IMG/VR virus record: IMGVR_UViG_3300046804_004123 | Coordinates: 40,174 to 104,173 of that record | Strand: one strand, 5' to 3' | Length of the DNA stretch: 64,000 nt | DNA from: a virus | Part shown: one piece after another, positions 3,824 to 44,267 of the stretch | Layout: every line of letters starts with the position of its first letter | Numbering within the stretch: position 1 is the stretch's first letter | Made by a program: the position numbers and the translations under genes | Notes under the pieces: generated by a model | What the model saw: the letters and a program-made list of their open reading frames with translations, nothing else | What the model was told of the DNA's origin: nothing | Database searches by the model: none

Positions 3824-3829
3824 ACTTTC

Positions 3830-24510: not shown

Positions 24511-25125
24511 TTAAAAATCAATATCTAGAGAAATAGTAATTCTATCCATATCAGTTTCATTACTTTCAACATAATGAAAAGTAGATGCTGGAAATATAAT
24601 TAATTTTCCATCAAATGGTTCAACTTTATGAAAAGTTTTTAAGTTAAGATCTTTTTTAATTTTTTCATTATAGATTTCATGATGCCCTAAATTAGTATAT
24701 AAATTGTTAAACACTAAATCACCAGAAAACCTATACGGACTACTTACAAAAAGAACAGCAGATAATATACCTTTTGAATGATGATTACAAATATTACAAT
24801 TTCCTTTCCTATTAATATTTGCCCAAGAATTTATTATATTTTCATGAGTTAATTCAATAGATCTATCTAAAACTTTTGATAGACAATATCTTATTTCTTG
24901 ATATAAAATATCAAAATATTTTTCAAATTTTTTAGTATGAAGTAAGGAATGTTCTTCTAATGATTGCCATCCTCCACAGTTGTTATAAGATTGTTTTTTA
25001 GGAAATTTACTTTCATATTCGTATATGTCATCGACTAAAGAATCTTTTATTTGATAAAAATTTTCAATTTGTTTTTCAATTACTGGAACTGGAAACAGAG
25101 TATAAATGTTTAAATTATTTTTCAT
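24511..25125 (-). CDS. 2OG-Fe(II) oxygenase-like protein
   Basis: 204 residues resembling the 2OG-FeII_Oxy_5 group common in cyanophages. The core shows CNHHSKGILSAVLFVSSPYRFSG, then DLVFNNL, GKLIIFPASTFHYVES (H184) and RITISLDIDF (R195), giving the double-stranded beta-helix with the distal His and 2OG-binding Arg. The N-terminus has the FPVPVIEKQIENF opening often seen in this group. The substrate is unknown; such genes sit beside glycan or tail genes. It is the last gene of the glycan island operon. Confidence 0.75.
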   Translation of the reverse strand: MKNNLNIYTLFPVPVIEKQIENFYQIKDSLVDDIYEYESKFPKKQSYNNCGGWQSLEEHSLLHTKKFEKYFDILYQEIRYCLSKVLDRSIELTHENIINSWANINRKGNCNICNHHSKGILSAVLFVSSPYRFSGDLVFNNLYTNLGHHEIYNEKIKKDLNLKTFHKVEPFDGKLIIFPASTFHYVESNETDMDRITISLDIDF

Positions 25126-25130
25126 AAAAC

Positions 25131-25931
25131 TTACGCTCCATCTTCATGCCAACATTCATTATATCCATTTTTTTGATCATCATATGGGTAAGAATTTAGT
25201 TCTTTCTTTGGCCAAACTAAATCAATACCAGTTCTTGGAAAAGATTTAAATATTTTTTTACTTAAACTTTGACTAAGTTCATATGCCTCTTGCCATTTGG
25301 GAGCATAATCATAAAGATATTCGTTAGGATAAAGTAAAAATAATTTAATCCTGTCATCATAGTTAGAACAATAGTGTGCTCCAATATAAGTTTCTGTTCT
25401 CGTATAATGACCATAATACTTCCACAAATCATACTTGCTTATTCTCACTTTGTCAATAAGTCCATTTAATTCTAATGGAATATCAAACATTTTTAATAAG
25501 TGTTCTGTTTTTCCCCAGAAAACATGATCTCTGGGATGAAATAAAAGATGTGGATACATTCCAGGAACAAAAATTCTATCTTCATTCCTATTTTCAATAA
25601 AGAACTGATACATATTCAACATACTTTGATAAGTATATTTCTGATCGGTTCTCATTTTAATTGCATATTCAGTTGTAACTTTCTGCAATCCAGAAAAAGA
25701 AGTTACGATCTGAAGATTTCTATTATCTGTTCCAGGAGTAATTGGAAATTTATTTGAAACAACAAAAAATCTTGAAGTGGGATGATAATTGACAATATCA
25801 TCATCCCAACAAGAAAGAATAATGTTGTTTACGAAAGGTAGTTCAAAGTATGAATCTATAACCTCATTAGTAAATTCATCATATCTTCCTTGCAGAACAA
25901 TATCAATTTTTTCAAAGTTATTATTCTGCAT
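25131..25931 (-). CDS. WavE-like glycan synthesis protein
   Basis: 266 residues. The opening KIDIVLQGRYDEFTNEVIDSYF and the central TEYAIKMRTDQKY are characteristic of the WavE family, whose Vibrio member is needed for lipopolysaccharide core synthesis. DDDIVNYHPTSRFFVVSNKF and VFWGKTEHLLKMF are further family-like blocks. A glycosyltransferase fold is assumed for this family. It abuts the start and end of both neighbours in the island operon. Confidence 0.75.
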   Translation of the reverse strand: MQNNNFEKIDIVLQGRYDEFTNEVIDSYFELPFVNNIILSCWDDDIVNYHPTSRFFVVSNKFPITPGTDNRNLQIVTSFSGLQKVTTEYAIKMRTDQKYTYQSMLNMYQFFIENRNEDRIFVPGMYPHLLFHPRDHVFWGKTEHLLKMFDIPLELNGLIDKVRISKYDLWKYYGHYTRTETYIGAHYCSNYDDRIKLFLLYPNEYLYDYAPKWQEAYELSQSLSKKIFKSFPRTGIDLVWPKKELNSYPYDDQKNGYNECWHEDGA

Positions 25932-28900
25932 CAGATCTTTTTTTCAAGATGAATGTCATAGTGCTTTAAATTTTCAACAATAATATCATAATAATCTTCA
26001 CCAACATTATCATCTTCAGATAAAGATACAAAAATATTTTTGGATTCTTCTACTTTACCCCAATACCATCCAGACAAAGCCTTTTCAAATAAAAGACCAT
26101 ACTTACCTGGATACTCAACATCAGAAGTTGTTGATGGGTCAAACAATTCACAAATACTTAGTCCTAATGAAGCATACTTGTAGCAGTCATTCCATTGATG
26201 TCTTCTTTCATGAAATCTAGCAAGTAAGAAATATGCCTCAGGTCTATTTGGAAGAGTGCAGAGAGCTTGTTGAAGTAAAGATATTGCAGTTCCATCTCTA
26301 GTTCCTTGCTTATCATAACAATGGTGGCATTTGATTAAAGATTCATAGATCATATTCTCATCTTCGTATCTTTCAGATGCTCTCAAAAAATAAGATAATG
26401 CAGGAGCCGTGTGTCCCTCTTTTTCATACCAAAGACCCAAATCATAATTTCTTTGGGGATTTTCTGGATCTAACGAATATTCAGTTAGTAACACTTCAAG
26501 ATCAGTTTTATTCCTAGAAATAGAAATTTCATCATTAGATTCAACTAAATCTAAAATTTTTGATTGATAATTTTTTTTCCACCACCCAATAACATGTTCA
26601 TATGTTTCTACATGATAATCTTTATTTTCTTTTTCAAGTTCAGAATGACCATAAAAAGTAGATTTAAGATTTTGGTCTTCAACAAAAAGATTTACAGAAT
26701 AAACTTTCCCCAAGTTATAAAATAAAAGATTTTCAGGCATTGGATAAAAATCTGTTCCTGGAATTTCTAATTTATAACAATCTCCTTCGATATAAGTTTC
26801 AATTATTTTTCTTGCATAATCTCTAGTTAAAATATATGCAGTAACAGACCAATCCATCATTGATCTATTTCTTATTTTTACTTCTTGTTGATTTTCATTT
26901 ATACAACAAAGTTGAACACACTCAGCATCTTCTGGTAAATTTTCTATAAAATCATTCCAAGTAAAGTTCCAATATTCAACTGTTTCAAGGCTCAAATCAT
27001 CTTCGCAGAAAAATGCATAATCATCTTCAGTTTCTTCATACCATTTTTTAATTGCCTTTAAATGAGATATGCAACACCCAGTTGTTCCAGAGTCAAGAAT
27101 ATGAAGTTGTTTACCATAAACTACATCGTCACATTCATGAAATCTTTTAGAAATAATCCCATGAAGGTTTGTAACTCCAAGATCTAAAAATTGTTTGTGT
27201 AATTTTTCCCTTCTATCTACACTTTCCTCTAGACTAATGTAATAAACACTAGGAAAATCTACAAATTTAATTTTATTTGGAATAATTTTATCAGAAGTTA
27301 ATTTAAAGCCCATTTCTTTCCACCAATTAAGAATTGTATTGTGAGAATTATAATGATGATCATTCAAATCATTAGTAACATTTTCTATTTCATAAGAAGA
27401 TTTAAATGAAACATCTTCAACAAAAAGAGGATAAACATATACTCTATTAGTTAAACCTAAAATAATAGTTTCTACTACTGGAATAACTGCCCAATCTGGA
27501 CGAGTATCTACATCATAACACTTACAGTCTAAATGAAAATAATCATCGTAATAGTATGTATCTATCAATTTTTGTGCATATTCTCTAGTAATTAAATATG
27601 CACAACAAGACCAATCACATGGCCATCTTTTTCTAAACTCAAAAGGATTTAAGTAGTCGGTATAATATTCTCTTAGTAAACAAAGTTGAATACAATCCCA
27701 CTTAGGAGGAAGAATATCCATAAATTCTTCCCAGGTAAAATTCCAGTATTCAACTGTTTGAAGACTTAAATCATCTTCACAGAAGAATGCATATTCATCA
27801 TTTGTACTGTTTAACCATTGTTTAATTGCTTTAAGGTGTGAAGTAACTGGTCCTCTACTACCTTGGCTTAATTTCCATTGACCAACTGCATTTAAATAAT
27901 CACTAAGAATTACGTGCTCATCATCATTATATCTTTTGAATATGTGTGAGGTTATATTAGTTACTCCATACTTTTTAAATTTTTCATATAATTTTTTTCT
28001 TCTAAAAGTAGAATTTTCTATGCTAACGTAATGAACTGGTGGAAAATTTTTTAATTTGTTAAAATCATTATCAGTCTCTTCTTTTATACTGGCAATATAA
28101 AACCTATCTTTTTGTTCATCAATTACCCATTCTGTATTTGATTTATTATAATAATCAACTATGTTTTCCAATTTTTGAGAGTTAATTCTATTATGTTCCA
28201 TTGTAAGAACATAATCAGTTTGCCACTCCAATTCATCTCCAAAATATACATTGCTTAAATTAATACGAATAGTCTCTCTAAGATCTTTATCAGTTTCGGA
28301 AGATTTAAAATTTTCAACTCGTTTTGTATCTGGATGAGGTATATGGAACACATGATAATCAAAATCCATTTTCTTGTGCTCCAACCCCACCATTTCTAAT
28401 CTTTTATAGATTTCATCATCTTCAAAAGAATAATATTCACAAAAATCTTCATTATATCCACCAACTTTTAAAAAATTTTCTTTTGATACAAATAAAAGAC
28501 CAGTTAAAAATCTATAATAAGAACTATAAGAATTATAGTAATCAGTTAATTGATCTAAAGACATCTTATTGCGGTCTACAATATAATTACCAGTTCTTTC
28601 ATCATAAAATTCATTATTTACAATAGAACTTTTTCCGCTTACAAATGATTGACTATCTATTTTGTACTTATCAAAAAAAGAATAATAACAATTAAATACA
28701 TAATCACAATCAACTTTTAGAATATAATCTCCTTTTGCCACAGAAACCGCAAGATTAAGCGGTTGTGGTTGATTAAAATATTTTTGATTCTGAACTCTAA
28801 TAATTTTAATTCTTTCATCTAAAGAAATTAAATGCTCTAAACTTTCATCGGAACTCCAATCAACGATTATTATTTCAGTAATTTCTTTATGATTTAACCA

Positions 28901-28966
28901 AGAATTTAAAGAAACATTTAAAGCTGAATTGCGATTTTTGCAAGCACAAATTAAAGAAATAGACAT
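25931..28966 (-). CDS. Multi-domain glycosyltransferase: GT2, two GT25-like domains, TPR tail
   Basis: 1011 residues. Residues 1 to about 230 are a GT2 domain: SLICACKNRNSALNVSLNSW, EIIIVDWSSDESLE, VDCDY, and GGYNEDFCEYYSFEDDE. About 305-530 is a GT25-like domain (FPPVHYVSIENSTFRRKKLY, SHLKAIKQW, AFFCEDDLSLQTVEYWNF). About 570-815 is a second copy of it (FPSVYYISLEESVDRREKL, FFCEDDLSLETVEYWNF), so one domain was duplicated. Residues from about 825 are TPR-like helices (NPQRNYDLGLWYEKEG, RPEAYFLLARFHERRHQW). GT25 enzymes move galactose in LPS. One protein could add several sugars in turn. Confidence 0.82.
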   Translation of the reverse strand: MSISLICACKNRNSALNVSLNSWLNHKEITEIIIVDWSSDESLEHLISLDERIKIIRVQNQKYFNQPQPLNLAVSVAKGDYILKVDCDYVFNCYYSFFDKYKIDSQSFVSGKSSIVNNEFYDERTGNYIVDRNKMSLDQLTDYYNSYSSYYRFLTGLLFVSKENFLKVGGYNEDFCEYYSFEDDEIYKRLEMVGLEHKKMDFDYHVFHIPHPDTKRVENFKSSETDKDLRETIRINLSNVYFGDELEWQTDYVLTMEHNRINSQKLENIVDYYNKSNTEWVIDEQKDRFYIASIKEETDNDFNKLKNFPPVHYVSIENSTFRRKKLYEKFKKYGVTNITSHIFKRYNDDEHVILSDYLNAVGQWKLSQGSRGPVTSHLKAIKQWLNSTNDEYAFFCEDDLSLQTVEYWNFTWEEFMDILPPKWDCIQLCLLREYYTDYLNPFEFRKRWPCDWSCCAYLITREYAQKLIDTYYYDDYFHLDCKCYDVDTRPDWAVIPVVETIILGLTNRVYVYPLFVEDVSFKSSYEIENVTNDLNDHHYNSHNTILNWWKEMGFKLTSDKIIPNKIKFVDFPSVYYISLEESVDRREKLHKQFLDLGVTNLHGIISKRFHECDDVVYGKQLHILDSGTTGCCISHLKAIKKWYEETEDDYAFFCEDDLSLETVEYWNFTWNDFIENLPEDAECVQLCCINENQQEVKIRNRSMMDWSVTAYILTRDYARKIIETYIEGDCYKLEIPGTDFYPMPENLLFYNLGKVYSVNLFVEDQNLKSTFYGHSELEKENKDYHVETYEHVIGWWKKNYQSKILDLVESNDEISISRNKTDLEVLLTEYSLDPENPQRNYDLGLWYEKEGHTAPALSYFLRASERYEDENMIYESLIKCHHCYDKQGTRDGTAISLLQQALCTLPNRPEAYFLLARFHERRHQWNDCYKYASLGLSICELFDPSTTSDVEYPGKYGLLFEKALSGWYWGKVEESKNIFVSLSEDDNVGEDYYDIIVENLKHYDIHLEKKI

Positions 28967-28971
28967 ATAAA

Positions 28972-29442
28972 TCAGTTACTTGATATAAACTTTTTATAAA
29001 AAATTGCTTTGTCGGTGCATACACCGAATCCTTTTTTTAAATTTTCTAGATGATCATAATAATTTATTGATTCTGGAAGAACAATGATTCCTTTTGAGTA
29101 TGGAAATTGCCCTATCAAAATCCAACCAAATCCTTTACTGGTGATAGTATACCTATCAGTTTCATGCCAAAAATAGTTAAATTCTACCATAGATGTAGAT
29201 AATTTTTCCAGTGCTTCTCTATTTTTACAGTGAATCCATAAAACATCTTTGTGTTTTACCAACCAATTAATAGGAACATGATATTGTGGTTTATCATGTC
29301 CAAGATAACACTCATTATTTTCAACTCTTAAATCAATCTCAACATCAAATCCTTCAGCAATTGCTTCTTCAATATAATCAACACTATTTTCCTTGATTGG
29401 ATTTGGACCAGTCAAATTTCCACGATGAGAAATAATTTTCAT
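28972..29442 (-). CDS. Short glycerophosphodiester phosphodiesterase-like protein
   Basis: 156 residues from ATG at 29442; a longer frame to 29673 exists but it runs antiphase through the RuBisCO-like gene and is not used. The core GDPD residues are present: SHRGN (H6, R7), KENSVDYIE, FDVEIDLR (E35, D37) and LGHDKP (H49, D50). Full enzymes have about 240 residues, so the C-terminal half of the barrel is reduced. It would cut a phosphodiester such as a glycerophospho-sugar. The start lies one base after the RLP stop, so the two are likely co-translated. Confidence 0.8.
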   Translation of the reverse strand: MKIISHRGNLTGPNPIKENSVDYIEEAIAEGFDVEIDLRVENNECYLGHDKPQYHVPINWLVKHKDVLWIHCKNREALEKLSTSMVEFNYFWHETDRYTITSKGFGWILIGQFPYSKGIIVLPESINYYDHLENLKKGFGVCTDKAIFYKKFISSN

Positions 29443-29443
29443 A

Positions 29444-30682
29444 TCAAAAATCCAACACCCACTCAGGAAGAGAACCTCCACCAGTTTCATATCCCCACTT
29501 ATCAATAGCAGCACGAAACTCTGGTCCAGGAGTTTTATCAATTGCCTGACGCATTGCCAGAGCACCTGCCAGAGTACCCCCAGGATGCCCGTGAACAGCG
29601 CCGCCACAGTTAGCAAGGAAGTCTGTTCCAAACTTCTCTGCAGTGGTGTTAACGATCCCTGGATGCATACCACAACTCAATGCTGGAAGAACATTTCTAT
29701 TGTAAAGTGTCGTTAAAGTCTTACGAAGTTCTGTCTCATCATCACTGAGATATCCACCCCACATTCCAGCATGAATGGTATCCACTCCACAAAGACCAGC
29801 AAGATCACAGAGAACATCCCAATCAATACCAAATGCATGTCTCTTATCAGTAAGGATTTTATCTCCACTCTTTTGGTAATGAATAAACATTGGAAGGTCC
29901 ATTCTTCTAATTGAATTATAAACACCAAGACCAGACCAGAAATTAATGTGGATACCATTACCACCATTATTTGCAACAAAATTTGCACGTTCAAGAATGG
30001 TGTGATGATCTCCATTAATACAGAAGCAGTAAATTACTCCTCTTCCACATTCATTTACAATGTTTGAAATAAGTTCTACACGATCTTCAAGACGGCAGAA
30101 TGCAGGATTGGAAAGAATTTCATCTTCCTTAATAAAATCAACACCACCATCAAGAAGTTCTTTAACCATATCGGCAAGAGTTTGTGGTGTAATGCCTGTT
30201 TTAGGTTTTACGATTGCACCAGAAAGTGGTTTATCAAACCTGTTAACGAACCTACGAATACCTTCAATTCCATATTTTGGTCCAAGAAATTGTGCTTCTA
30301 CATCAGCAGGAAACTCCAGTTTCTGAAGGCGACAAACTTTAAATACATCAATATCAAGTTGTCCACCCATTACCTGACAGAGAAGATGTGAGATACCATC
30401 ACCTTCCCAATCAGTATTGACTTTGGGGAATCCAATCTTCACTTGCCCAGAGTGAACCCCAGTAAGGTTTTCTTCCGTATCATAGATGACACAAGATGCT
30501 AACTCAAAAAGTTCATCACTCTCCCAGCGATTACGAACCTTTGGATTTCCCACACTCTGCCCAATGGCAAGATTCCAAGCAGCATCTCTCAAATCACCAA
30601 CTTGATGATTTGCTTCAATATAATACGTTGCTACTACACAACGATCTCTTTCTTGTTCTGTTAGTTCTCTAAAAAATTTCAT
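29444..30682 (-). CDS. RuBisCO-like protein (RLP, large-subunit superfamily)
   Basis: 412 residues covering the RuBisCO large-subunit barrel. The metal site is kept: KPK (K159, K161 = K175, K177 of spinach) and GGVDFIKEDE (K185, D187, E188 = K201, D203, E204). H268 (H294), H304 in DTIHAG (H327), S336 (S379) and the CGGAVHGHPGG phosphate loop are also kept. R295 is Tyr269, and the loop-6 Lys334 is Tyr311; N123 and E60 are not evident. This is the pattern of form IV RLPs, which act as enolases, isomerases or decarboxylases in sugar-phosphate and methionine salvage chemistry. The start overlaps the upstream methyltransferase stop by four bases. Confidence 0.93.
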   Translation of the reverse strand: MKFFRELTEQERDRCVVATYYIEANHQVGDLRDAAWNLAIGQSVGNPKVRNRWESDELFELASCVIYDTEENLTGVHSGQVKIGFPKVNTDWEGDGISHLLCQVMGGQLDIDVFKVCRLQKLEFPADVEAQFLGPKYGIEGIRRFVNRFDKPLSGAIVKPKTGITPQTLADMVKELLDGGVDFIKEDEILSNPAFCRLEDRVELISNIVNECGRGVIYCFCINGDHHTILERANFVANNGGNGIHINFWSGLGVYNSIRRMDLPMFIHYQKSGDKILTDKRHAFGIDWDVLCDLAGLCGVDTIHAGMWGGYLSDDETELRKTLTTLYNRNVLPALSCGMHPGIVNTTAEKFGTDFLANCGGAVHGHPGGTLAGALAMRQAIDKTPGPEFRAAIDKWGYETGGGSLPEWVLDF

Positions 30683-31353
30683 GCTTCAACCTCATTTCTT
30701 ACTAAGACTAATATCTCATCACCATCAAATCCATATTGTTGATTAGAATTACAAGTTTTTACTTGAGTTATATTACTATAATACTTATCATGCCCATAAA
30801 GTTTAATTTCATCAGCATAACTGTAAATTCTATAAACAATATCTTCAATTATAAGACATCCTCCAGGATTTAAATACTTATAAGCATTTCTAATTACTTT
30901 AATTTGATCCCAAAACTTATGGCTAGAATCATCTATAATAACATCAAATTTAGTATTAGATTTTTCAAAAGAATTATTAATTGACTCTTCGGATTTGACA
31001 TTCATATAATCATAAAACACATTATGTAAATTTTCAGTTTTGGCATTTTGTATAAAATCCTCTTGATATCTATCTTCAGAAGATTCTCCTACTTTACAAT
31101 CCCACCCATAAAGAGTTGCATTTGAAAAGTATTCTCTCCACATTCTCATAGATGCGTTTTTATATATTCCAATCTCACCAAAAACAATATTCTTATGTCT
31201 AATATTAGAAAATAAAAAATTATAAAACGGAGTGTATGCGTGATGCCCCATAGAACGCGCCAGAGGAGATTTATCAGTTCCATACTTTTCACCAATAAAA
31301 CACAAATCTGTAGGAGATGAAAAACTATTATACAATATTTGATTAAACTTCAC
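30679..31353 (-). CDS. SAM-dependent O-methyltransferase-like protein
   Basis: 224 residues. An N-terminal GEKYGTDKSPLARSMGHHAY segment with a TDK motif precedes motif I (VFGEIGIYKNASMRMW). Later blocks are ATLYGWDCKVGE, FDVIIDDSSHKFWDQIKVI and LNPGGCLIIEDI. This is the order found in macrocin- and sugar-type O-methyltransferases that use a metal. A sugar or glycan hydroxyl is the likely target here. The stop overlaps the RLP start and the start follows the cupin by two bases. Confidence 0.82.
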   Translation of the reverse strand: MKFNQILYNSFSSPTDLCFIGEKYGTDKSPLARSMGHHAYTPFYNFLFSNIRHKNIVFGEIGIYKNASMRMWREYFSNATLYGWDCKVGESSEDRYQEDFIQNAKTENLHNVFYDYMNVKSEESINNSFEKSNTKFDVIIDDSSHKFWDQIKVIRNAYKYLNPGGCLIIEDIVYRIYSYADEIKLYGHDKYYSNITQVKTCNSNQQYGFDGDEILVLVRNEVEA

Positions 31354-31355
31354 TT

Positions 31356-31676
31356 TTAAACCTCAAACTTATCTGATGGAATAGAAGGAACTTTAACGAC
31401 AACTAATGTACAATCTTCAAGAAAAACTGGATCTGCAACTTCTCCTTTTTCAAAAATAAATACATCTCCACTATTTAATTCTTTTCCTTGAATGGTCATT
31501 TTTCCAGAAACAAGAACATTATATTCTACACTTTCTTTATGGTAGTGCGGTGCCCAATACTCTCCCTTTTTATGCGTAAGTAACCCAACTTCAAATTGGT
31601 CTGTTTTCAATACTGAAGGTTTAAAGTTTCCTATAAACCAACCTCTCACATAATCAGTAATTTTTGATGTGTTCAT
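31356..31676 (-). CDS. Single-domain cupin
   Basis: 106 residues. Cupin motif 1 is YWAPHYHKESVEYNVLVSG (H44, H46 and E51 as probable metal ligands) and motif 2 is GKELNSGDVFIFEKGEVADP. Small cupins often act in sugar isomerisation, oxygenation or as sensors. Placed between a nucleotidyltransferase and the methyltransferase/RLP genes, it may modify the same sugar. The 5' end overlaps the nucleotidyltransferase by 23 bases. Confidence 0.85.
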   Translation of the reverse strand: MNTSKITDYVRGWFIGNFKPSVLKTDQFEVGLLTHKKGEYWAPHYHKESVEYNVLVSGKMTIQGKELNSGDVFIFEKGEVADPVFLEDCTLVVVKVPSIPSDKFEV

Positions 31677-32385
31677 ACTTTTCTAAAAAAGAATTCAAAT
31701 CTTCTGGAACTCCAACTGGATTATGTTGATAATTTGGAATATGATGTATTCCAACTTTAAGTCCTTTCTTAATCATATGATTATAAGATGGGCCAACATA
31801 AAACTCACCATTAGGTGCTCTATCATTACATTGTATCATATCTTCTGCACTTTGTACAAAATATTTCCCCTTTCTCCAATAATGAATTCCATTTAAGGAT
31901 ATATCACTTATAACTTCTTTTTCTTTTATTTCCTGAACAAATCCTTTACGATCAATTCTAGCGTAACTATTTTTTGGTGTAGATGTGGTATAAGTCACAA
32001 TCAACCCATCATACTTATAATATCTTGCAGATGTTAAAAATAAATCAGAATCCCACCACATAATCTGATCACAGTTAGCAATTATTAATTCATCCTCATT
32101 ATTAATAAAATCTTTAAACAAAAGACAACTGGAAGCAGGTCCTTCTGTAGTTTCTTCTACGCTAATAATTTTTGAAGTTGGAAGTATGGAATGTAATAAT
32201 GTACATACTTGATCATAATAACTATCTTTTCTTATGATAAAATGATAGGTTCCCGTTAATCCAAGAGAATGAACTGCTCTTTGAATCATTGCAATTCCAT
32301 CAATTTCAATTAATGGTTTTGGAATTTTATAGGTATCTCTAGGAAATCTAGTCCCTTCACCTGCCATTGGAATTATTATATTCAT
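31654..32385 (-). CDS. Sugar nucleotidyltransferase
   Basis: 243 residues of the NTP_transferase family. The nucleotide-binding start is IIPMAGEGTRFPRDTYKIPKPLIEI (the G-x-G-T-R and KPLI signatures). Further along are IANCDQIMWW (the nucleoside/metal Asp), GPASSCLLFKDF, and EFYVGPSYNHMI at the end of the core. It would join a sugar- or alcohol-phosphate to a nucleotide, making the donor for glycosyltransferases of the island. The exact sugar and base cannot be told. This makes local supply of an activated sugar plausible, together with the RLP and cupin. Confidence 0.88.
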   Translation of the reverse strand: MNIIIPMAGEGTRFPRDTYKIPKPLIEIDGIAMIQRAVHSLGLTGTYHFIIRKDSYYDQVCTLLHSILPTSKIISVEETTEGPASSCLLFKDFINNEDELIIANCDQIMWWDSDLFLTSARYYKYDGLIVTYTTSTPKNSYARIDRKGFVQEIKEKEVISDISLNGIHYWRKGKYFVQSAEDMIQCNDRAPNGEFYVGPSYNHMIKKGLKVGIHHIPNYQHNPVGVPEDLNSFLEKYEHIKNY

Positions 32386-32391
32386 TACTTT

Positions 32392-33261
32392 TTATTCAAA
32401 CATTACCTTAACTATTTTTTTAGTTGTTAAATTATTTTTAGTATAATCAAAAAGATATTCATTTAATTCATCATAACAAGGATGAATTTCGTATCTTCTG
32501 GCATATTTATTGGTTTCTTTAATAATATCTTTTGGAAAATTTACCATTGTTAAAGGAGGACAATCTTCAATATCTGGAAAATAAGGAATGCATTTGTTTG
32601 CCAATATTTCATAATGCCTCATACAATTCCATTGAGATTTTTTCCAAGTCATACCATAATAAGAACTTGCATAATCATTATAGTAATCATTTTCATTATC
32701 GTAAATATAAGTTTCAAATTTTCCTGGAATAATGTAAGCAAATATTTTTTCTTTAGTTGGAGTATAATTAATTAATTGTGATTCTGGAATTCCAAAAGTA
32801 ATTGGATTTGCAGCTCCAGGATCTATCAAATGAGTTTTCCAAATAGTTCCATAGGAATTTAGACCATGAGCATGTGCAAAATTCCAAGTATTATCTGAAC
32901 CATCAATTAAATGAATTTTATCTTTTGAATAATATTGTTTTACATATTCAAAATAATCTAAACATTGTCTTTTATTAAATCCTTCATGAGTATAGATGCA
33001 TCCATAAATTATAGCATCATAAAATCTTGATTTAATTTTTTCAATTATTGTTTCTGGAGAATCTAGTTTTGGAGTATGTTCTAACTTACCAAATATTGTA
33101 AAACCTTTTCCATAAATGTGAGATCTTTCTGTAAAAGATTTTAACATATAAGAAGGATAATGAGTTTCATATACTTCTATACCATTATCAATCAAACCAT
33201 GATAAATTGTATCTGATTGATAATCTGGATACTCAAAATTATAGACAAATAAAACCTTCAT
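32392..33261 (-). CDS. Putative glycosyltransferase
   Basis: 289 residues from ATG at 33261; a start at 33291 would reach further into the upstream methyltransferase. It opens with KVLFVYNFEYPDYQSDTIYHGL, a Rossmann-like strand and helix. The C-terminal part has WNCMRHYEILANKCIPYFPDI and PPLTMVNFPKDI, which resemble the donor-site half of CgeB or GT-B type enzymes (RxxEAxAxGCxP-like motif). The first half contains IYGCIYTHEGFN. The assignment to a transferase is moderate; no exact family could be named. Confidence 0.65.
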   Translation of the reverse strand: MKVLFVYNFEYPDYQSDTIYHGLIDNGIEVYETHYPSYMLKSFTERSHIYGKGFTIFGKLEHTPKLDSPETIIEKIKSRFYDAIIYGCIYTHEGFNKRQCLDYFEYVKQYYSKDKIHLIDGSDNTWNFAHAHGLNSYGTIWKTHLIDPGAANPITFGIPESQLINYTPTKEKIFAYIIPGKFETYIYDNENDYYNDYASSYYGMTWKKSQWNCMRHYEILANKCIPYFPDIEDCPPLTMVNFPKDIIKETNKYARRYEIHPCYDELNEYLFDYTKNNLTTKKIVKVMFE

Positions 33262-33905
33262 ATACGCTTTCTTGCAAAAGCAATTCCCCAATCTTTAGGG
33301 CAACAATTTTGCGTGATTTCCCATTTAGTTTTATCTAAAGCATTAACAAATTCTTTAGGTCCAGGATGACATGATACATCATGAAATCCAACAACACCAC
33401 TATCAGATAATAAATTTGTATATTCCCAATCTCTTAAAACTTGATTAATACTATGCCACCCATCAATAAAAATAAAATCAAATTTTACATCATCAGTTCC
33501 TAATACCATTTTAAAAATATCAAGATTTTCATCATAAAATGAACTATCATTTTGAATAGTGTGAATATTATTTTCAGCGTTTCTTAAGAATGATCTATCA
33601 GCAATATCTAGACCAACATAAACAGTATCCTTTTTTTTATTTTTTGTTAAAACATGAACAAAAGAATCTTCTGCATTCCTACCTACACCTATTTCCAAAA
33701 TTGCTTTTGCAGTATCACGAACTTTTAAGAAATTTTCAAGTAAATAATACCTATTACAAATAGTAACTTCTTCAGGATAAATCATGTTACCTTCAAAATC
33801 ACATTTATGCCCATATCTATATGGATGAGAATCTGCTACACCATCAACATCATCATATGCAGTGAATGTTCTAATATCTTTTGTTAAATCGTTTTCCCAT
33901 TTCAT
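33258..33905 (-). CDS. SAM methyltransferase, single-domain paralogue
   Basis: 215 residues. Motif I is AILEIGVGRNAEDSFVHVL, then VYVGLDIADRSFL, FDFIFIDGWHSINQVLRDWEY and VVGFHDVSCHPGP. The whole protein, including the opening KWENDLTKDIRTF and the ending CPKDWGIAF, aligns with the last 210 residues of the 1070-residue fusion protein encoded at 35997-39209. So the same module exists alone and fused. A glycan or sugar substrate is likely. A late-promoter-like AATAAATA lies 27 bases before the start. Confidence 0.85.
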   Translation of the reverse strand: MKWENDLTKDIRTFTAYDDVDGVADSHPYRYGHKCDFEGNMIYPEEVTICNRYYLLENFLKVRDTAKAILEIGVGRNAEDSFVHVLTKNKKKDTVYVGLDIADRSFLRNAENNIHTIQNDSSFYDENLDIFKMVLGTDDVKFDFIFIDGWHSINQVLRDWEYTNLLSDSGVVGFHDVSCHPGPKEFVNALDKTKWEITQNCCPKDWGIAFARKRI

Positions 33906-33931
33906 AAGTAATTAATCCGAATAAAAAAAAT

Positions 33932-33939
33932 TATTTATT
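33932..33939 (-). promoter_or_regulatory. Possible T4-type late promoter
   Basis: Minus strand AATAAATA, seven of eight matches to the T4 late -10 element TATAAATA, placed 27 bases upstream of the methyltransferase ATG at 33905 in the short gap after the preceding gene. In such AT-rich DNA this can occur by chance. Confidence 0.4.
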
Positions 33940-33942
33940 GTT

Positions 33943-34692
33943 TTAATATAGGTTGGGATACCAAATCCTACGAAAATCAATATTATTATTAATCCTAACT
34001 CTAAAATCACACCTGTTTATATTGATTTTTTTCAAATTAAAATATTTTAAAAGCATTGTTTCTGGATGATATGGAACACCTTCAATTTCAATTATATTAT
34101 TATAAAAATTGGAATATTCATCCATTACATTTGATGGTCCAAATGCAAATTGATCATTAATTCCACCACACCAATCTTCACCCTTTGGTATGTTTAGACT
34201 TTTTGGATATTCTTCAAGATTGAGTGTTTTGTTTTCAAAATCACTATCAAACCTCATTCTAATCACAGTATCAAAAGTCATATTATTTTCTTTTTCATAT
34301 ATAACTTTTAGATTATTTGACATGTTAATTGAATGATGCATACTAATTGGTCCCACATCATACCGAGGTTTGATGCACCCTTCGGGGTTTTCAAATGGAA
34401 GTAGATTTAATGAGTTATAAATTTCTTGAAACTTATGTTTTTTAGTTTCATAATCTTCAATTAAAAGTTTTTCATAATTATATTTTTCTAAAAAACTAAA
34501 TTGAGTTTCAACAATATTATTATACTCTTTAAATTCTAATCCAGAAACAGTTTTTAAAAATTCTTCTCTATTAGAAATTTTCCAAGTATGAATAAAAATT
34601 TTTACATGGTCATTTGGAAAAATATTTTTTATACTTTTCAATCCAATATGAGGATATCTAATAGCCCCAGATAAACAAACTGCTATTTTCAT
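33943..34692 (-). CDS. Putative glycosyltransferase, WavE/RgpF-like
   Basis: 249 residues. It opens with KIAVCLSGAIRYPHIGLKSIKN and has VKIFIHTWKISN, then FDTVIRMRFDSDFE, the R-x-R-x-D type motif shared with the WavE-like protein of this island, and NDQFAFGPSNVMDEYSNF near the end. This set is common in phage and cyanobacterial surface-glycan proteins of the WavE or similar group. The start overlaps the stop of the upstream propeller gene by four bases. Confidence 0.7.
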   Translation of the reverse strand: MKIAVCLSGAIRYPHIGLKSIKNIFPNDHVKIFIHTWKISNREEFLKTVSGLEFKEYNNIVETQFSFLEKYNYEKLLIEDYETKKHKFQEIYNSLNLLPFENPEGCIKPRYDVGPISMHHSINMSNNLKVIYEKENNMTFDTVIRMRFDSDFENKTLNLEEYPKSLNIPKGEDWCGGINDQFAFGPSNVMDEYSNFYNNIIEIEGVPYHPETMLLKYFNLKKININRCDFRVRINNNIDFRRIWYPNLY

Positions 34693-35681
34693 GCTTTAAA
34701 AATATAATCTTGTGTAAATGATTTAGAAACTCTCAGCAAGTATGCCGCATTATCCTGGAATCCAAATGTGATTAAGTAATCATCACCATACTCACACATA
34801 CCAACCGCAAATTCTATTTCTGCATTTAAGAAAGAAAATCTTTCAGAAACTTTAACAATATTCCAATCATTGTCCCAAACTACAAATCTATGACGATAAG
34901 TTCCATCTTTTCTACCTGCTGGACTTTGGAAAAGAAAAGTTTCATGATTCAAGCAAAATCTATACTCGCCAAGTTTAAGAACTTGTGATCCACCACGAAG
35001 ATCTATACAACCTAAATCTTGCCAATCTTTAACTGCAACTCTTTCAGTAGTGTTAGATTTAATATCATATTTAACAACTTCAGTTCCATTTGTCCACTTA
35101 ACAAAATGAAATGGAAGATCTAAAATAGGCATCCAATTTTTTTCGCAATACGAAGTTTCATCACCTTTATCAACTCCAGGAACAGGAATACGATATTGAT
35201 TTACTTCCTTCACACCACTATCAGTTATCTCAATTTCAGATAACTCCATTCTACCCTGTCCATTATATGTGGTGTCTCTTCTTACTCCACAAGTATAGAG
35301 TTTACCGTCCCATCTCATAATACGACAATCTTCCAATCCAACAAATTCCCATAGTTCTTGATCTGGAAATTTTGAAGTATCAATGTGATGATACCATTTC
35401 ATATTCATAGTATCATCCATTTCGCACATTATATTTTTTGTGCGAAGGCGAAGATCATTTTCTGGATGAATATAAACTAGAGGACCCCAGTGATGTTCAA
35501 ACTTTTTCTTTTCAGAATGATATAAAGTATAATTAATATTTCTCAAATTAACTAAAATTCTACCATTATCATTATAAATGGATGGATTTGTAACAGCTGG
35601 TCCTTTTAAATCTGAAGAAGGAATAATAAGAGGATGAATACTTCCACCATTTTCCAACGCAAGTTTTACAAAATTTGACAT
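34689..35681 (-). CDS. GH130-like five-bladed propeller protein
   Basis: 330 residues from ATG at 35681 (a start ten codons upstream is possible but adds only polar residues). Recurrent strands fit a five-bladed propeller: NPSIYNDNGRILVNLRN, EFVGLEDCRIMRWDGKLYTCG, EKNWMPILDLPFHFVKW, GSQVLKLGEYRFCLNHE and EIEFAVGMCEYGDDYLITFG. GH130 enzymes are phosphorylases or hydrolases of beta-mannosides. The GLEDxR and EKNW motifs agree with that family. Here it may trim or release mannose- or other sugar-phosphates. It lies with the glycosyltransferases. Confidence 0.75.
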   Translation of the reverse strand: MSNFVKLALENGGSIHPLIIPSSDLKGPAVTNPSIYNDNGRILVNLRNINYTLYHSEKKKFEHHWGPLVYIHPENDLRLRTKNIMCEMDDTMNMKWYHHIDTSKFPDQELWEFVGLEDCRIMRWDGKLYTCGVRRDTTYNGQGRMELSEIEITDSGVKEVNQYRIPVPGVDKGDETSYCEKNWMPILDLPFHFVKWTNGTEVVKYDIKSNTTERVAVKDWQDLGCIDLRGGSQVLKLGEYRFCLNHETFLFQSPAGRKDGTYRHRFVVWDNDWNIVKVSERFSFLNAEIEFAVGMCEYGDDYLITFGFQDNAAYLLRVSKSFTQDYIFKA

Positions 35682-35733
35682 AATTATTTCGTTCTTAATT
35701 TTATTATACAATAGATTTTAATTATTTTCAAAT

Positions 35734-35979
35734 TTATTCAATAGTCGTCATAGTTTCTGAAATTAATGGTTGATTTTCTACGATAGATTCTGGTCTTCTA
35801 TAAATTTTTACAGTTGCTTCAACTGGATAATCCCAACCATATTCATCTTTAAGATCAACAATTTCTTGAATAGACAAACTTACTTCTGCATATTGTTCAT
35901 GTGCTAATTGATATAGATGAGCAAGAGGCATACTTGAAGTAACTTCATGATCAAACATACTAGGATCTCTTGGGTCCAT
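35734..35979 (-). CDS. Small conserved protein of unknown function
   Basis: 81 residues. The chain is acidic with a helix (PLAHLYQLAHEQYAEVSLSIQEIVDLKDEYG) and a short strand pair (VEATVKIYRRPE). There is no signal peptide or Cys motif. I have no family for it. It sits between the propeller protein and the four-domain fusion, 17 bases downstream of the latter, in the same orientation. It may be a small partner of either. Confidence 0.6.
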   Translation of the reverse strand: MDPRDPSMFDHEVTSSMPLAHLYQLAHEQYAEVSLSIQEIVDLKDEYGWDYPVEATVKIYRRPESIVENQPLISETMTTIE

Positions 35980-35996
35980 AATCTACCTTATTGTAA

Positions 35997-38900
35997 TTAT
36001 TTTTTATATATAGCAAATCCTATTCCCCAATCTTCTGGGCAAAGATTTTCTTGAACATCCCATTTATTCTTATCTAGTGCATTAACAAATCTGTTAGGGC
36101 CGAAATGGCATGTCGTATCATGAAATCCAACTACACCTCCAGGATTTAGAAGTTTTGTATATTCCCAATCTTTAAGAACTTGATTGATGCTGTGATACCC
36201 ATCAATAAAAATAAAGTCAAATTTATCAACACCTAAAGATTTAAATAATTGAACATTATACTCATAATTAGAACTATCTGTTTTAAACGTATATACTTTA
36301 TTTTGAGAATCATTTAAGAAACTTCTGTCTTCAATATCAATCCCAATATAAATTGAATCTGGATTTTTATTTTTTGAGAAGATGTGTGCAAAAGACCTAT
36401 CATCATTTCTGCCAATTCCTATTTCTAGAATTGCTTTACAATTTTCTTTAACAGTCAAAAACTTTTCTTCAAGATTCTTGAGGTTGCAGTCACTAATTTC
36501 AGGAGGAGCAGAAAAAGTATTGTCTGGATTCAAATCATATCGTAAAGGATGTGCTCCTACTCCAGGAAAATCTTGGTCATCCCTTGGGTCATGATACCGA
36601 ATATCTTGAATTAAATCATCTTCCCATTTAAATTTTTTTTTTAAATTATTTGGAATTTCACCATCTTTAATCCAAAGTTCTTTTGAAAATTCAATCCATT
36701 CTTTTACTCTTGTGTCCCAACTATAATAATCATTACAAACTTCTACTTGACGAGTGTTGTCAAATTTACCTTCATGATATTCTACAATCGTCTTCTTAAG
36801 TTCAGAAGCAAACTTAACAATGTGCTTGTTACGATCTGGAATGTATCCATAATGACGGGCAAATCCAAGACCAGTTTCTGGAAGAGCGGCAAGATTGCTA
36901 GAAAGAACAGAACACCCAGCAGCAAGTGCTTCAATCATACAAATACAAGAAGTCTCCTGGAAGTATGATGGATAAGCAAAGATATGAGTCTTCATTAATT
37001 GTTCACGAATCTTGGAGTTATTTGTTCTTGTATGGCGAACAACTCTACTGTCAGCATTAGCAAGTGCTAAACAATACCGAAGAAACTTTTCTTCATCCTC
37101 ACAAACATGTGCATATTCGTATGTTTGGAATCCATCTAGATACTGCTTTTTCCTTTCATCGGGATCAAGTTCGTGGAAAATATGCAATTCAAAATCCTCA
37201 TCTGGGATAAGACGAATTGCTTCCAAAAGAAGATCTAATCCACGAATAGGATTAGGATGAAAAATTAATTGTAACTTTCCTTCAGGTTTTTTATGTGGTT
37301 CAAATGGTTGAATAGCATTCTTAAGAACGTAGCACTTTTCCATAGGAAGATTAAACTTCTCACCAAACCGTTCATATTGCCAGTTAGAAACAAAAACATA
37401 TGCTTTAAAATGTTTTTGAAACTGCTTATCCATTAACTGTTCAAGATTTTGCTCATTATGATGAGGATGCAACCAAACAATATTAGAATTATCTGGAGCA
37501 ATTATATTATCACCAGGAATAACACACCAATGCCAATCTGCCAAATCTGGAGCTTTAGGGAGAACAAGATCTTGCCAGGCACGACCCATAATTTCCGTTC
37601 CTCCAGTTCCATCTGGATTTAATGATGCTTCCAAAAGTGGAGGCATATTATTGTGCAAATATTCTGGTTTTGTGTTTACCAAATCTTTTTCGGATTTGTA
37701 TAAATCTGAGATTGAGTCAATAGTCATATCTGGAAAATTGATTTTAATATCGTTTATTAATGTTTTGTTTTTACTAATTACACCTAACCCATGAGAATTT
37801 ATAAAATTAATCTTATAATAACCAGTTATTTCATCAAAAAATTTCCCAACAAGTTCTTTAAAACTAACTGTATCATGAAATAATATTATACCATCTTCTT
37901 TAACAAATTTATTCCAATTTTCAAAATCATTTTTGGCAGCATCGTAAGAATGATGCCCATCAATATGTAAAATATCAATACTCTTATTCCATTGTTTTGA
38001 TATTTCAGAAAAGTCTCCAAATATAAAATTAAAATTATCAAGATTTAATTTTTTTGAAATATCCAAAACAAACTTATCAATTTCTTCATTCTCTCTTCCA
38101 GAATAAGAATCTATTCCATAAACTTTTCCATTTGAATATAAACTCATCAAAAATGATGAGTATCCGTAATCAACACCTAATTCAACAATAGTTTCTGGAT
38201 TTTTATATTCAATTAACCATTTAATAAACTTTCTATGCCCTACTGGTTTTTGATTCCACGCAGATGGAATATTAGATATAATATCTTCAATATCATTGTC
38301 TGGAAGATTCTTTACATAGTTTTTAAAATCTGTATTAGTTTCCCAAGAAAAATTTTCAATAACTTCTTTATTTTTAAACTCTTCAATTGCATTCATATTA
38401 TACATTTCTTTTGGAAAAATTTTTATAATTATGTCTTGAAGATCTTTTGGAAAATTATTAAAACTAAAAAATTTAAGAGGATCGGATCTATGAAATAAAT
38501 CTTTTCTAGTTTTTATACATTCTAGTATATTTTTTTCATTTTTATATTTTTCTTTATTAAATTCTTGATGAGAAAAAGATTCTATTTTGTGTTGAATTGT
38601 TTTAACATCACCAAAATATGAGAAGTGCCATCCACTATTATTGTAGCAATTAAACTCACCTCTTTGCCATCTCAATTGTGTAAATTTTATTTTAGAAGCA
38701 TTTTGAACTTTAACAAAAATTGTCCCTGGCCAAACGTTAGTGTTTACTGTAGTAAAATTAAAATATAAACCAAAAAAGTTTGCGGTAGAACAAAAATTTT
38801 GTGGAAGATTTTCTACCCTTAACTGAGATATTAATCTTTTATCAGGTATTTCATCAACATCACTTAACATTAAAAGGTCATCAGGAGAAAACTGTTGTAG

Positions 38901-39209
38901 ATTTTCTCCCATGTAATCTCTCTGACCGAATTCTATTTTCCAAAAATCAGATTCAAAATCACATTTATCAGTCTCTCCAAACTTACAATCACTGATATCT
39001 GGTTCATAATAAAGACGGATAATTTTTTTCTTTATTTCATCATCCAATTCATTAATATACTCATCAAGATAATAAGGTTTTTCTTTTCCAGAAAAAGTAT
39101 ATTTAGATTCACAGACTAAAAAGCAATCAACAACATCTTTAAGGTATTCAGTTCTTAATTTTAACATATTCTTTTCATTAAAGAATATAAAACTATCAAT
39201 TACTTTCAT
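35997..39209 (-). CDS. Four-domain fusion: GT17, methyltransferase, GT4, methyltransferase
   Basis: 1070 residues. About 1-225 is a GT17-like domain (DSFIFFNEKNMLKLR, CFLVCESKYTFSG, LLMLSDVDEIPD, GWHFSYFGD). About 335-500 is a Methyltransf_24 domain (IVELGVDYGYSSFLM, DILHIDGHHSYDAAKNDF). About 530-850 is a GT4 domain (GTGGTEIMGRAW, LIFHPNPIRGLDLLL, FAYPSYFQETSCICMIEALA). About 865-1070 is a second methyltransferase that matches the separate 215-residue protein. The GT4 part is less AT-rich than its flanks, as if joined later. It may build and methylate a glycan in one polypeptide. Confidence 0.85.
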   Translation of the reverse strand: MKVIDSFIFFNEKNMLKLRTEYLKDVVDCFLVCESKYTFSGKEKPYYLDEYINELDDEIKKKIIRLYYEPDISDCKFGETDKCDFESDFWKIEFGQRDYMGENLQQFSPDDLLMLSDVDEIPDKRLISQLRVENLPQNFCSTANFFGLYFNFTTVNTNVWPGTIFVKVQNASKIKFTQLRWQRGEFNCYNNSGWHFSYFGDVKTIQHKIESFSHQEFNKEKYKNEKNILECIKTRKDLFHRSDPLKFFSFNNFPKDLQDIIIKIFPKEMYNMNAIEEFKNKEVIENFSWETNTDFKNYVKNLPDNDIEDIISNIPSAWNQKPVGHRKFIKWLIEYKNPETIVELGVDYGYSSFLMSLYSNGKVYGIDSYSGRENEEIDKFVLDISKKLNLDNFNFIFGDFSEISKQWNKSIDILHIDGHHSYDAAKNDFENWNKFVKEDGIILFHDTVSFKELVGKFFDEITGYYKINFINSHGLGVISKNKTLINDIKINFPDMTIDSISDLYKSEKDLVNTKPEYLHNNMPPLLEASLNPDGTGGTEIMGRAWQDLVLPKAPDLADWHWCVIPGDNIIAPDNSNIVWLHPHHNEQNLEQLMDKQFQKHFKAYVFVSNWQYERFGEKFNLPMEKCYVLKNAIQPFEPHKKPEGKLQLIFHPNPIRGLDLLLEAIRLIPDEDFELHIFHELDPDERKKQYLDGFQTYEYAHVCEDEEKFLRYCLALANADSRVVRHTRTNNSKIREQLMKTHIFAYPSYFQETSCICMIEALAAGCSVLSSNLAALPETGLGFARHYGYIPDRNKHIVKFASELKKTIVEYHEGKFDNTRQVEVCNDYYSWDTRVKEWIEFSKELWIKDGEIPNNLKKKFKWEDDLIQDIRYHDPRDDQDFPGVGAHPLRYDLNPDNTFSAPPEISDCNLKNLEEKFLTVKENCKAILEIGIGRNDDRSFAHIFSKNKNPDSIYIGIDIEDRSFLNDSQNKVYTFKTDSSNYEYNVQLFKSLGVDKFDFIFIDGYHSINQVLKDWEYTKLLNPGGVVGFHDTTCHFGPNRFVNALDKNKWDVQENLCPEDWGIGFAIYKK

Positions 39210-39940
39210 TGTTTAAGACTTTGTAATGGTTTTGTTATATCTATGGTCTTGTGATATTCATTTCTAGTTCCTAATTGATCTTTGTGAATTGCTTTATATT
39301 GAGTAATCAAATTATTGAATGAACAATTACCAAACAAAGAATAAAGTTGTTTAAAAATTTCCGCGTCAAGGCAAAACGTTTGGAAAGATGGAAATCTTAT
39401 ATCAACATCTTTTCTATGAAAAACATTAGTTCTCCAAGAAACTTGACTAGCATCTAGTTGTAAATGTGGATTTAAATCATCAATTCTATTTAAATGATAA
39501 TTATTATTGAATTTTATATCATTTAAAGAACGCACTTCAAATGGATCAAAAATAACAGAGTGTCCATATGAATAATTTTTTTGAGGACTTCTTTCATACC
39601 ATTTACATAAACCTTCAAGATATCCAGGATATAGAGCATCATCGTCGCATAAAATTATGCAAATATCAGAATCACTTTCTAAAACTGCCCTATTCCAATA
39701 ATGACCATGAGTGCTAAATCTTTTTTGTTTTCCTTCAAAAGTATCATGAGTATGATAAAATTTTACTTTTTCAGTTTCACTACCTAGTATATCTTCAACA
39801 ATTGGTTTTCCTGGATAATCACTAGAGTCATCAACGAAAATCCATTCCCAGTCTTTATGAGATTGATACTTTATAGACTCCGCAGTATATCTAATCATAT
39901 TAGGACGATTAAAATAAGAAGACAATATGGTTATTTTCAT
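39206..39940 (-). CDS. GT2-family glycosyltransferase
   Basis: 244 residues. The GT-A fold signs are clear: KITILSSYFNRPNMIRYTAES, WEWIFVDDSSDYPGK, then the DxD-type SDICIILCDDDALYPGYLEGL. A later conserved block is RFPSFQTFCLDAEIFKQLY. It would transfer a sugar from a nucleotide donor to a glycan in the cytoplasm. The start overlaps the stop of the upstream gene by four bases, and the stop overlaps the start of the four-domain fusion, so all three are translationally coupled. Confidence 0.85.
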   Translation of the reverse strand: MKITILSSYFNRPNMIRYTAESIKYQSHKDWEWIFVDDSSDYPGKPIVEDILGSETEKVKFYHTHDTFEGKQKRFSTHGHYWNRAVLESDSDICIILCDDDALYPGYLEGLCKWYERSPQKNYSYGHSVIFDPFEVRSLNDIKFNNNYHLNRIDDLNPHLQLDASQVSWRTNVFHRKDVDIRFPSFQTFCLDAEIFKQLYSLFGNCSFNNLITQYKAIHKDQLGTRNEYHKTIDITKPLQSLKQ

Positions 39941-42144: not shown

Positions 42145-42145
42145 A

Positions 42146-43567: not shown

Positions 43568-44267
43568 AACGTTCTCTTGGATAAAGTGCAAAATAATGAT
43601 CTACAGCACTGTAATGTATTGATCTTACTTTTGGTTTATTGGAGCACAACCAAACTTCATAACAAAATCTATGACCTTCAAACCTTTCCGTAAACTTTTC
43701 ATCATAATATAAAGTACGATCTAAAACATTTGGTAATGTTTTAATATAATCTGTTGTTGCCCACCAGAAATTTCCAGCAAAATGGGGGTATGGTTCTCTT
43801 GACCAGTTTGTTCCAACAGCATCTACTTGATCGTCTTCAATTTTTTGAATACAATCTTTCCATCTTTCCACACACCAATAGTTCATATAGTGTCTCCAGT
43901 CAGTTGTTGGAGCAGTTTGATATGAATTTACAGCATGAAGCATTCCTTTTGAATGGAAATAAAGAACATATCCATCATTTGTTTTTGAATATGTTTGAAT
44001 TTCTTTAAGTGTTTGACCTTCAAAAATATTTTCTTGTTCTCCTTGACCCTCCAAAACTCTAGATGAAAGAATATTTACAAATGGATATTTTTGCCGAACA
44101 TAAATTCTAATTTCATTAATAGCATGATCTGGAGCAGCATAGCACATATACACATTTGCAACATCGGAAAGACCAGAAGATTTGAGTAGTCCGAATTGCT
44201 CATCAAGAAATTTATTCCAAAGGCTATTAACTGCTCCTAAATGATAAAAAACAGCAATTTTTTTCAT
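43557..44267 (-). CDS. RgpF-like putative glycosyltransferase, single domain
   Basis: 236 residues, the stand-alone form of the domain fused in the next two genes. Shared blocks are IAVFYHLGAVNSLWNKFLDEQ, FEGQTLKEIQTYSKTNDG, YVLYFHSKGM, WRHYMNYWCVERWKDCI and PHFAGNFWWATTDYIKTLP. The FHxKG, WRxYM and GNFWWA pattern recalls rhamnan-synthesis protein F, a polysaccharide glycosyltransferase. Enzyme activity is inferred from that likeness and from the island. It overlaps the next gene at both ends by a few bases. Confidence 0.72.
   Translation of the reverse strand: MKKIAVFYHLGAVNSLWNKFLDEQFGLLKSSGLSDVANVYMCYAAPDHAINEIRIYVRQKYPFVNILSSRVLEGQGEQENIFEGQTLKEIQTYSKTNDGYVLYFHSKGMLHAVNSYQTAPTTDWRHYMNYWCVERWKDCIQKIEDDQVDAVGTNWSREPYPHFAGNFWWATTDYIKTLPNVLDRTLYYDEKFTERFEGHRFCYEVWLCSNKPKVRSIHYSAVDHYFALYPRERYAN

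Follow-up and report, generated by a model that had tools for sequence, protein, structure and literature searches.

A phage RuBisCO-like protein from a non-carboxylating form IV clade, with conserved partner genes that suggest a role in surface-glycan chemistry

A 64,000-nt stretch of viral DNA (the window; positions 40,174 to 104,173 of IMG/VR record IMGVR_UViG_3300046804_004123) encodes a RuBisCO-like protein (RLP) that belongs to a separate form IV clade, lacks residues needed for carboxylation and, in phages and in cells, recurs beside a conserved set of partner genes. What the data show directly is the fold, the clade, the residue pattern, the purifying selection, the conserved cassette and the setting among glycan genes. 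We consider it rather probable that the RLP enolises or isomerises a phospho-ketose and thereby supplies the neighbouring nucleotidyltransferase for surface-glycan decoration. A first-pass annotation, made from the sequence alone, had described a non-carboxylating RLP of a T4-like phage in a glycan gene cluster, and this core was borne out by the residues, the trees, a gp23 gene and Pfam assignments. The genes concerned are collected in Table 1.

Table 1. Genes of the RLP cassette and its surroundings, by position in the window.
Feature	Length (aa)	Position	Strand	Basis and remarks
Downstream part of the glycosyltransferase/methyltransferase cluster: 1011-aa GT2/GT25 multi-domain glycosyltransferase, WavE-like, 2OG-Fe(II) oxygenase		24511..28966	minus	Pfam
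GDPD-like phosphodiesterase	156	28972..29442	minus	Motif, AF2/Foldseek; starts 1 nt after RLP stop
RLP (RuBisCO-like protein)	412	29444..30682	minus	PF00016, PDB matches, AF2/Foldseek, dN/dS
Methyltransferase between cupin and RLP		30679..31353	minus	Methyltransf_31/24
Small cupin, HxHx4E motif	106	31356..31676	minus	Cupin_7/Cupin_2 below gathering cut-off
Sugar-1-phosphate-type nucleotidyltransferase (NTP_transferase)	243	31654..32385	minus	PF00483 E 1.2e-7; overlaps cupin start
Glycosyltransferase/methyltransferase cluster: GT17-MT-GT fusion, GT2, methyltransferases, unassigned ORFs		32392..45714	minus	Pfam

The RLP gene is an intact ORF. It had been read as encoding a full-length barrel of the RuBisCO superfamily, and the Pfam match (PF00016, E 2.8e-43), the AF2 model and the Foldseek search all agree with that reading; its strand, left unstated at first, is given in Table 1. 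The start of the gene overlaps the stop codon of the upstream gene (ATGA). By sequence, the best solved relatives are form III RuBisCO (2cwx, E 7e-42) and an MtnW-type protein (4nas, E 4e-39). The AF2 model, built from 27 phage sequences, has a mean pLDDT of 91.5 and a pTM of 0.90, and Foldseek aligned it to form III RuBisCO with TM scores of 0.85-0.86 and to MtnW with 0.82. Ratios of dN/dS against relatives were 0.05-0.08 (dS is near saturation and the ratios are rough), indicating strong purifying selection. No PHROGs family was found for the protein.

The window matches a 177-kb record, G485 (L001), at 99.995% identity over 21 kb, so the two represent the same virus. The gp23 major capsid gene present on G485 supports the original assignment to a T4-like phage. 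G485 also carries a photosystem reaction-centre gene (PF00124), which makes the virus probably a cyanophage; PF00124 was found in two other RLP records as well (22 tested). The same virus encodes a 2OG-Fe(II) oxygenase (24511-25125), a ThyX thymidylate synthase (20570-21202) and a PhoH-like protein (19535-20293).

Residues were mapped to form I numbering in 36 clade members by MAFFT, and for the window protein also by HMMER. Form I K175, K177, K201, D203, E204, S379, G381 and G403 are present in all 36 members and G404 in 35; in RLP numbering, K159, K161, K185, D187, E188 and G360 never vary and G361 scarcely does. The carbamylated Lys201/Asp203/Glu204 metal site of forms I-III is represented by the invariant K185, D187 and E188, and the glycines that bind phosphate are retained as well. 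Four other positions are uniformly replaced (36/36 each): loop-6 Lys334 by Tyr311, the neighbouring-subunit Asn123 by Gly107, T65 by Asn46 and H294 by Gln270. Pro47 stands at the position of Trp66, Cys337 at that of G380 and His304 at that of H327 (Gln in six members), and R295 is replaced by Lys271 in 33 members and by Ser in three. Both alignments uphold the initial report of K159/K161, K185/D187/E188, H304 and S336 and of Tyr at the K334 position, and no equivalent of the neighbouring-subunit Asn is evident, as had been remarked. The statement that H268 is kept and that R295 is Tyr269 was a two-residue mis-registration: HMMER and MAFFT agree in aligning H268 with H292, which makes Gln270 the equivalent of H294 and Lys271 that of R295. 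With these two replacements, the chemistry of the RLP may differ from that of every characterised RLP. The retained trio Lys271/His304/Ser336 could still make up a second phosphate site; MtnW, with Pro, Leu/Ile and Ser, appears to have lost it. Since K334, N123, T65/W66, H294 and R295 are all replaced and the trees place the protein outside forms I-III, the RLP is, as judged from its sequence, not a RuBP carboxylase.

Three trees were built, the fullest of which spans forms I, II, III and II/III-like, IV-Photo, MtnW, OiaX/3nwr and a group of short alphaproteobacterial RLPs; the IV-Photo rows were the PDB sequences 1ykw and 2qyg, and a Chlorobium RLP sequence served only as the query that retrieved them. 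The RLP and its relatives formed a separate form IV clade (support 100/100). A position inside a carboxylating clade would have spoken against the first reading; in each of the three runs the RLP lay outside forms I-III, which stood on one side of a branch with support of 96/90 and 98/96 in two trees. Joining the new clade to forms I-III was marginally rejected (p-AU 0.041, 74-row set). The protein is thereby form IV in the broad sense, having the fold and homology, having lost carboxylation residues and lying outside the form I/II/III clade. A grouping with MtnW was favoured, with support from 91/93 to 94/97; in the fullest tree the sister of the RLP clade is MtnW together with the short alphaproteobacterial RLPs (L316-L322; 94/97), and these group with MtnW at 97/91.

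MtnW, the 2,3-diketo-5-methylthiopentyl-1-phosphate (DK-MTP-1-P) enolase of form IV-YkrW, is accordingly the nearest tree neighbour and shares with the RLP the form IV fold, the carbamate/Asp/Glu metal site, K175, S379 and G381/G403/G404. It differs at R295 (Pro), H327 (Leu/Ile), K334 (Ser) and K177 (absent), four sites at which the RLP clade has Lys, His (or Gln), Tyr and Lys. The RLP is at best a sister group of the MtnW clade and does not fall inside it, its scores are below the MtnW NCBIfam cut-offs (NF007095, 167.1 vs 409; TIGR03332, 121.1 vs 513.6), and no methionine-salvage genes were seen among its annotated neighbours, which are glycan genes and the cassette. The short alphaproteobacterial RLPs form a clade distinct from that of the RLP and presumably represent form IV-DeepYkrW, the R. 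rubrum RLP type. The R. rubrum RLP is a phospho-ketose isomerase, and the known RLPs of the MtnW-side lineage tautomerise or isomerise phospho-ketoses (PMC6302742).

A scan of IMG/VR gave 222 matching stretches, all of which encode RLP relatives, and a second scan with a distant clade member as query gave 56 loci. No RLP relative was found in 50,697 records of deposited phages, a collection that may omit records close to the window. Cellular members of the clade come from Legionella, Azospirillum, Elusimicrobiota, Verrucomicrobiota, DPANN archaea and SAR11; the gene was present in 2 of 197 sampled genomes of the SAR11 family and in 4 of 22 Legionella genomes, and most SAR11, Legionella and DPANN carriers showed no second RuBisCO. 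Most phage RLPs make up one branch nested among the cellular members, a pattern that suggests transfer of the gene from cells to phages; as the tree is unrooted, this direction is tentative. Some contigs labelled as cellular may be viral, such as L082, which is identical to the viral L043 in the tree alignment.

When the neighbours of the RLP were clustered without supervision, the nucleotidyltransferase, the GDPD-like protein and the cupin were by far the three commonest families. Among 79 viral loci in which the RLP is flanked by 5 kb or more on each side, the nucleotidyltransferase was near it in 77, the GDPD-like gene in 69 and the cupin in 66, and all four genes occurred together in 58. 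In 17 members the GDPD catalytic motif, HRG...EN...ExD...HD, is fully or almost fully conserved, with H6-R7-G8, N19, E35-x-D37 and H49-D50 invariant. Two of these, the full-length relatives L089 and L090, match PF03009 (E 1.2e-21 and 2.1e-9); the short members tested gave an E value of 0.038 at best and did not reach the Pfam cut-off. The AF2 model of the window protein has a pLDDT of 94.1, and its top ten Foldseek matches are all GDPDs, albeit weak ones (E 4e-3 to 3e-2, TMq 0.54-0.69). The family has shrunk to ~150 aa, two-thirds of the normal size, with the catalytic motif retained. For the nucleotidyltransferase, PDB entry 4evw matched with an E value of 1.2e-14, and weak NCBIfam matches were to GlmU/RmlA-type enzymes; since the matches to characterised enzymes are weak, its substrate class is uncertain. 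Three loci (L004, L009 and L048) align with the window on both sides of the methyltransferase between RLP and cupin, with the flanks joined, and by this alignment that gene is a lineage-specific insertion that splits the cassette and lies outside its core.

The same association is seen in cells. Six-frame scans showed a contiguous GDPD-RLP-cupin-nucleotidyltransferase series, in the same order, in Elusimicrobia (L098) and Azospirillum (L099), and RLP loci of Nanoarchaeia and Verrucomicrobiia hold the GDPD and nucleotidyltransferase genes. SAR11 chromosomes carry GDPD-nucleotidyltransferase-RLP-nucleotidyltransferase at differing genomic sites, beside what we take by eye to be ppdK/nad-type genes in L094 and pheST/lepA-type genes in L095. 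The presence of two different nucleotidyltransferases with the RLP and the varied positions (L094, L095, L091-L093 and L096) suggest a mobile surface-chemistry island in SAR11. In four Legionella species (L100-L102, L250-L253) an RLP-nucleotidyltransferase pair lies beside a divergent LicD-family gene, outside any obvious polysaccharide cluster. LicD was not accepted as a cassette member, as it was seen only in closely related Legionella species, where linkage may be mere shared ancestry.

Reverse searches, from small samples seeded at one locus, found the RLP at 25 of 25 loci with the cupin as query, 9 of 16 with the nucleotidyltransferase and 5 of 20 with the GDPD-like protein; the GDPD collection scans were queried with single proteins. 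From these ratios the cupin appears tied to the RLP within the sample, and the GDPD and nucleotidyltransferase genes would be a wider pair to which RLP and cupin were added. Phage loci L280-L298 and L307-L313 hold the GDPD-like and nucleotidyltransferase genes without RLP or cupin. In several RLP-less loci the nucleotidyltransferase has an N-terminal extension of ~220 aa. This matches in size the HAD domain of L070, in which a HAD phosphatase is fused to a nucleotidyltransferase (2691-4070). A 3-dehydroquinate-synthase-like sugar cyclase and a short-chain dehydrogenase occur near the phage RLP at ten loci (L033, 3077-4138, and related), possibly an extra unusual sugar pathway. PADLOC gave no match in the cassette or in the genes around it, so a defence role is without support.

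In the window the cassette lies within a run of glycosyltransferase and methyltransferase genes adjoining tail-fibre-like genes, and Pfam assigned glycosyl- and methyltransferases on both sides of the RLP, in keeping with the glycan setting proposed from the start. On SAR11 single-cell contigs it adjoins a Wzx-type flippase, a DegT aminotransferase and NDP-sugar genes. Within the cluster of the window a methyltransferase module is duplicated (33274-33707 and 36013-36437, ~72% DNA identity), and the 1011-aa glycosyltransferase gene holds an intragenic repeat (26905-27061 and 27679-27834, 77.5%). A single 4380-aa ORF (45747-58889, minus strand; weak SH3_10 Pfam match) adjoins glycine-rich and tail-fibre-like genes and may encode a giant protein of the virion or one that serves adhesion.

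The clade and its conserved partners, which the first-pass annotation had not recognised, constrain the role of the RLP more than the operon alone does, and the substrate is probably a sugar-phosphate. The chemistry, the order of steps and the end product are proposed as follows. The RLP would abstract a proton next to the ketone of a phosphorylated keto-sugar, and enolisation is the most likely reaction because both the general-base lysines and the metal site (carbamylated lysine, Asp and Glu) are kept; re-protonation of the enediolate elsewhere would then yield an isomer, making the enzyme an isomerase or tautomerase. The adjacent nucleotidyltransferase would activate the resulting phospho-sugar, the GDPD-like enzyme would process a phosphodiester in the same pathway, and the cupin might act there as a metal-dependent isomerase or as a sensor. 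The activated unit would then pass to the glycosyl- and methyltransferases nearby, which would use it to decorate a glycan on the surface of the virion or of the infected host. The GDPD-like gene, together with LicD in Legionella, hints at a phosphodiester-linked product, which we regard as a lead. Since GDPD and nucleotidyltransferase pairs also occur without the RLP, it may be a side branch of the pathway and not its supplier. More tentatively, and with rather less than even confidence, the four genes can be read as an undescribed pathway in which a RuBisCO fold leads to a new nucleotide-activated phospho-ketose or phosphodiester donor, an ancient surface-chemistry module that bacteria and DPANN archaea share with hundreds of phages. 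On this reading, viruses would carry a widespread RuBisCO-family gene that plays no part in carbon fixation.

Other chemistry on the same fold must be weighed against the enolase or isomerase reading. Decarboxylation, transcarboxylation or hydrolysis of a keto-acid phosphate, as in the OiaX/OiaC apionate type, would feed the nucleotidyltransferase a shortened sugar-phosphate; such RLP chemistry is known (PMC6302742), the OiaX/non-photosynthetic RLPs (3nwr, plasmid RLPs) share the form IV fold and metal site, OiaX proteins are the nearest annotated plasmid proteins (~30-33% identity), and a sister grouping of OiaX and the new clade was not rejected (p-AU 0.495) in the 74-row set, which was without the second short-RLP group. 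We nevertheless think this unlikely, because the OiaX group retains R295 (15/15), K334 (15/15) and mostly N123 (12/15) and has lost K177, the opposite of the RLP clade, which has lost the former three and keeps K177. The RLP does not fall inside the OiaX/non-photo clade, itself separate at 100/99, the fuller tree places it with MtnW, its score is below the OiaX NCBIfam cut-off (NF042437, 158.6 vs 700), and the RLP cassettes did not show the four-carbon acid sugar kinase that is typical of the OiaX-group operon. Somewhat less credible again is a catabolic or salvage module, in which the GDPD would break a host phosphodiester glycan or lipid and the RLP would salvage the phospho-metabolite, with the nucleotidyltransferase running in reverse or unrelated. 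GDPD enzymes normally hydrolyse glycerophosphodiesters, and the RLP-less pairs and the HAD phosphatase fusion of L070 would fit such a module; in both phages and SAR11, however, its neighbours are glycosyl- and methyltransferases, a biosynthetic setting, and no partner is as constant as the nucleotidyltransferase.

A non-catalytic scaffold or regulator with a RuBisCO fold would account for the several changed substrate-contacting residues, but appears very improbable given metal and base residues that are invariant over a deep clade of phages, bacteria and archaea and the low dN/dS. Strongly disfavoured, and the least probable of all, is a genuine RuBP carboxylase, an auxiliary 'rbcL' with which the phage would raise carbon fixation in its cyanobacterial host during infection. 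Form III RuBisCO (2cwx, 2d69 and 3a12) gives the best sequence and fold matches, the metal site is kept, the virus is probably a cyanophage, and in landfill viromes a viral 'rbcL' auxiliary gene that clusters with 'RbcL-like' proteins has been listed under CO2 fixation (PMC12607003), a gene likened here to the RLP clade by its description. Unlike form III RuBisCO, the RLP clade is without the carboxylation residues, which are replaced clade-wide, and in three trees it is placed outside the clade made up of forms I/II/III; the protein scores below the type III RuBisCO NCBIfam cut-off (203.6 vs 497), and the clade also occurs in SAR11, Legionella and DPANN carriers, mostly with no second RuBisCO.

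The name IV-GOS was reportedly given by Tabita in 2007 to the ocean RuBisCO homologues of Yooseph 2007. In the part of that paper covered here (PMC1821046) these appear as unplaced, diverse sequences whose function was not known, with no mention of the cassette or of a phage link; the RLP clade may be the same group and, if so, may give them a function and a home. Form IV RLPs, listed viral rbcL-type genes (PMC12607003) and unplaced ocean homologues (PMC1821046) are already known. In the literature searched, no description was found of the cassette, of its spread over phages, bacteria and archaea or of the proposed function, nor any report of a comparable tie between RLPs and genes for nucleotidyltransferases or O-antigen, or genes of SAR11 or cyanophages.

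Because the carboxylase residues are absent, CO2-fixation calls would be wrong for this clade and especially misleading in cyanophages; a viral 'rbcL' that belongs to it should not be scored as carbon fixation. The conserved partners turn an orphan RLP clade into a testable pathway. They suggest a recruitment of the RuBisCO fold into surface-glycan chemistry, with implications for how phages and hosts recognise each other and for the range of reactions open to the RuBisCO superfamily.
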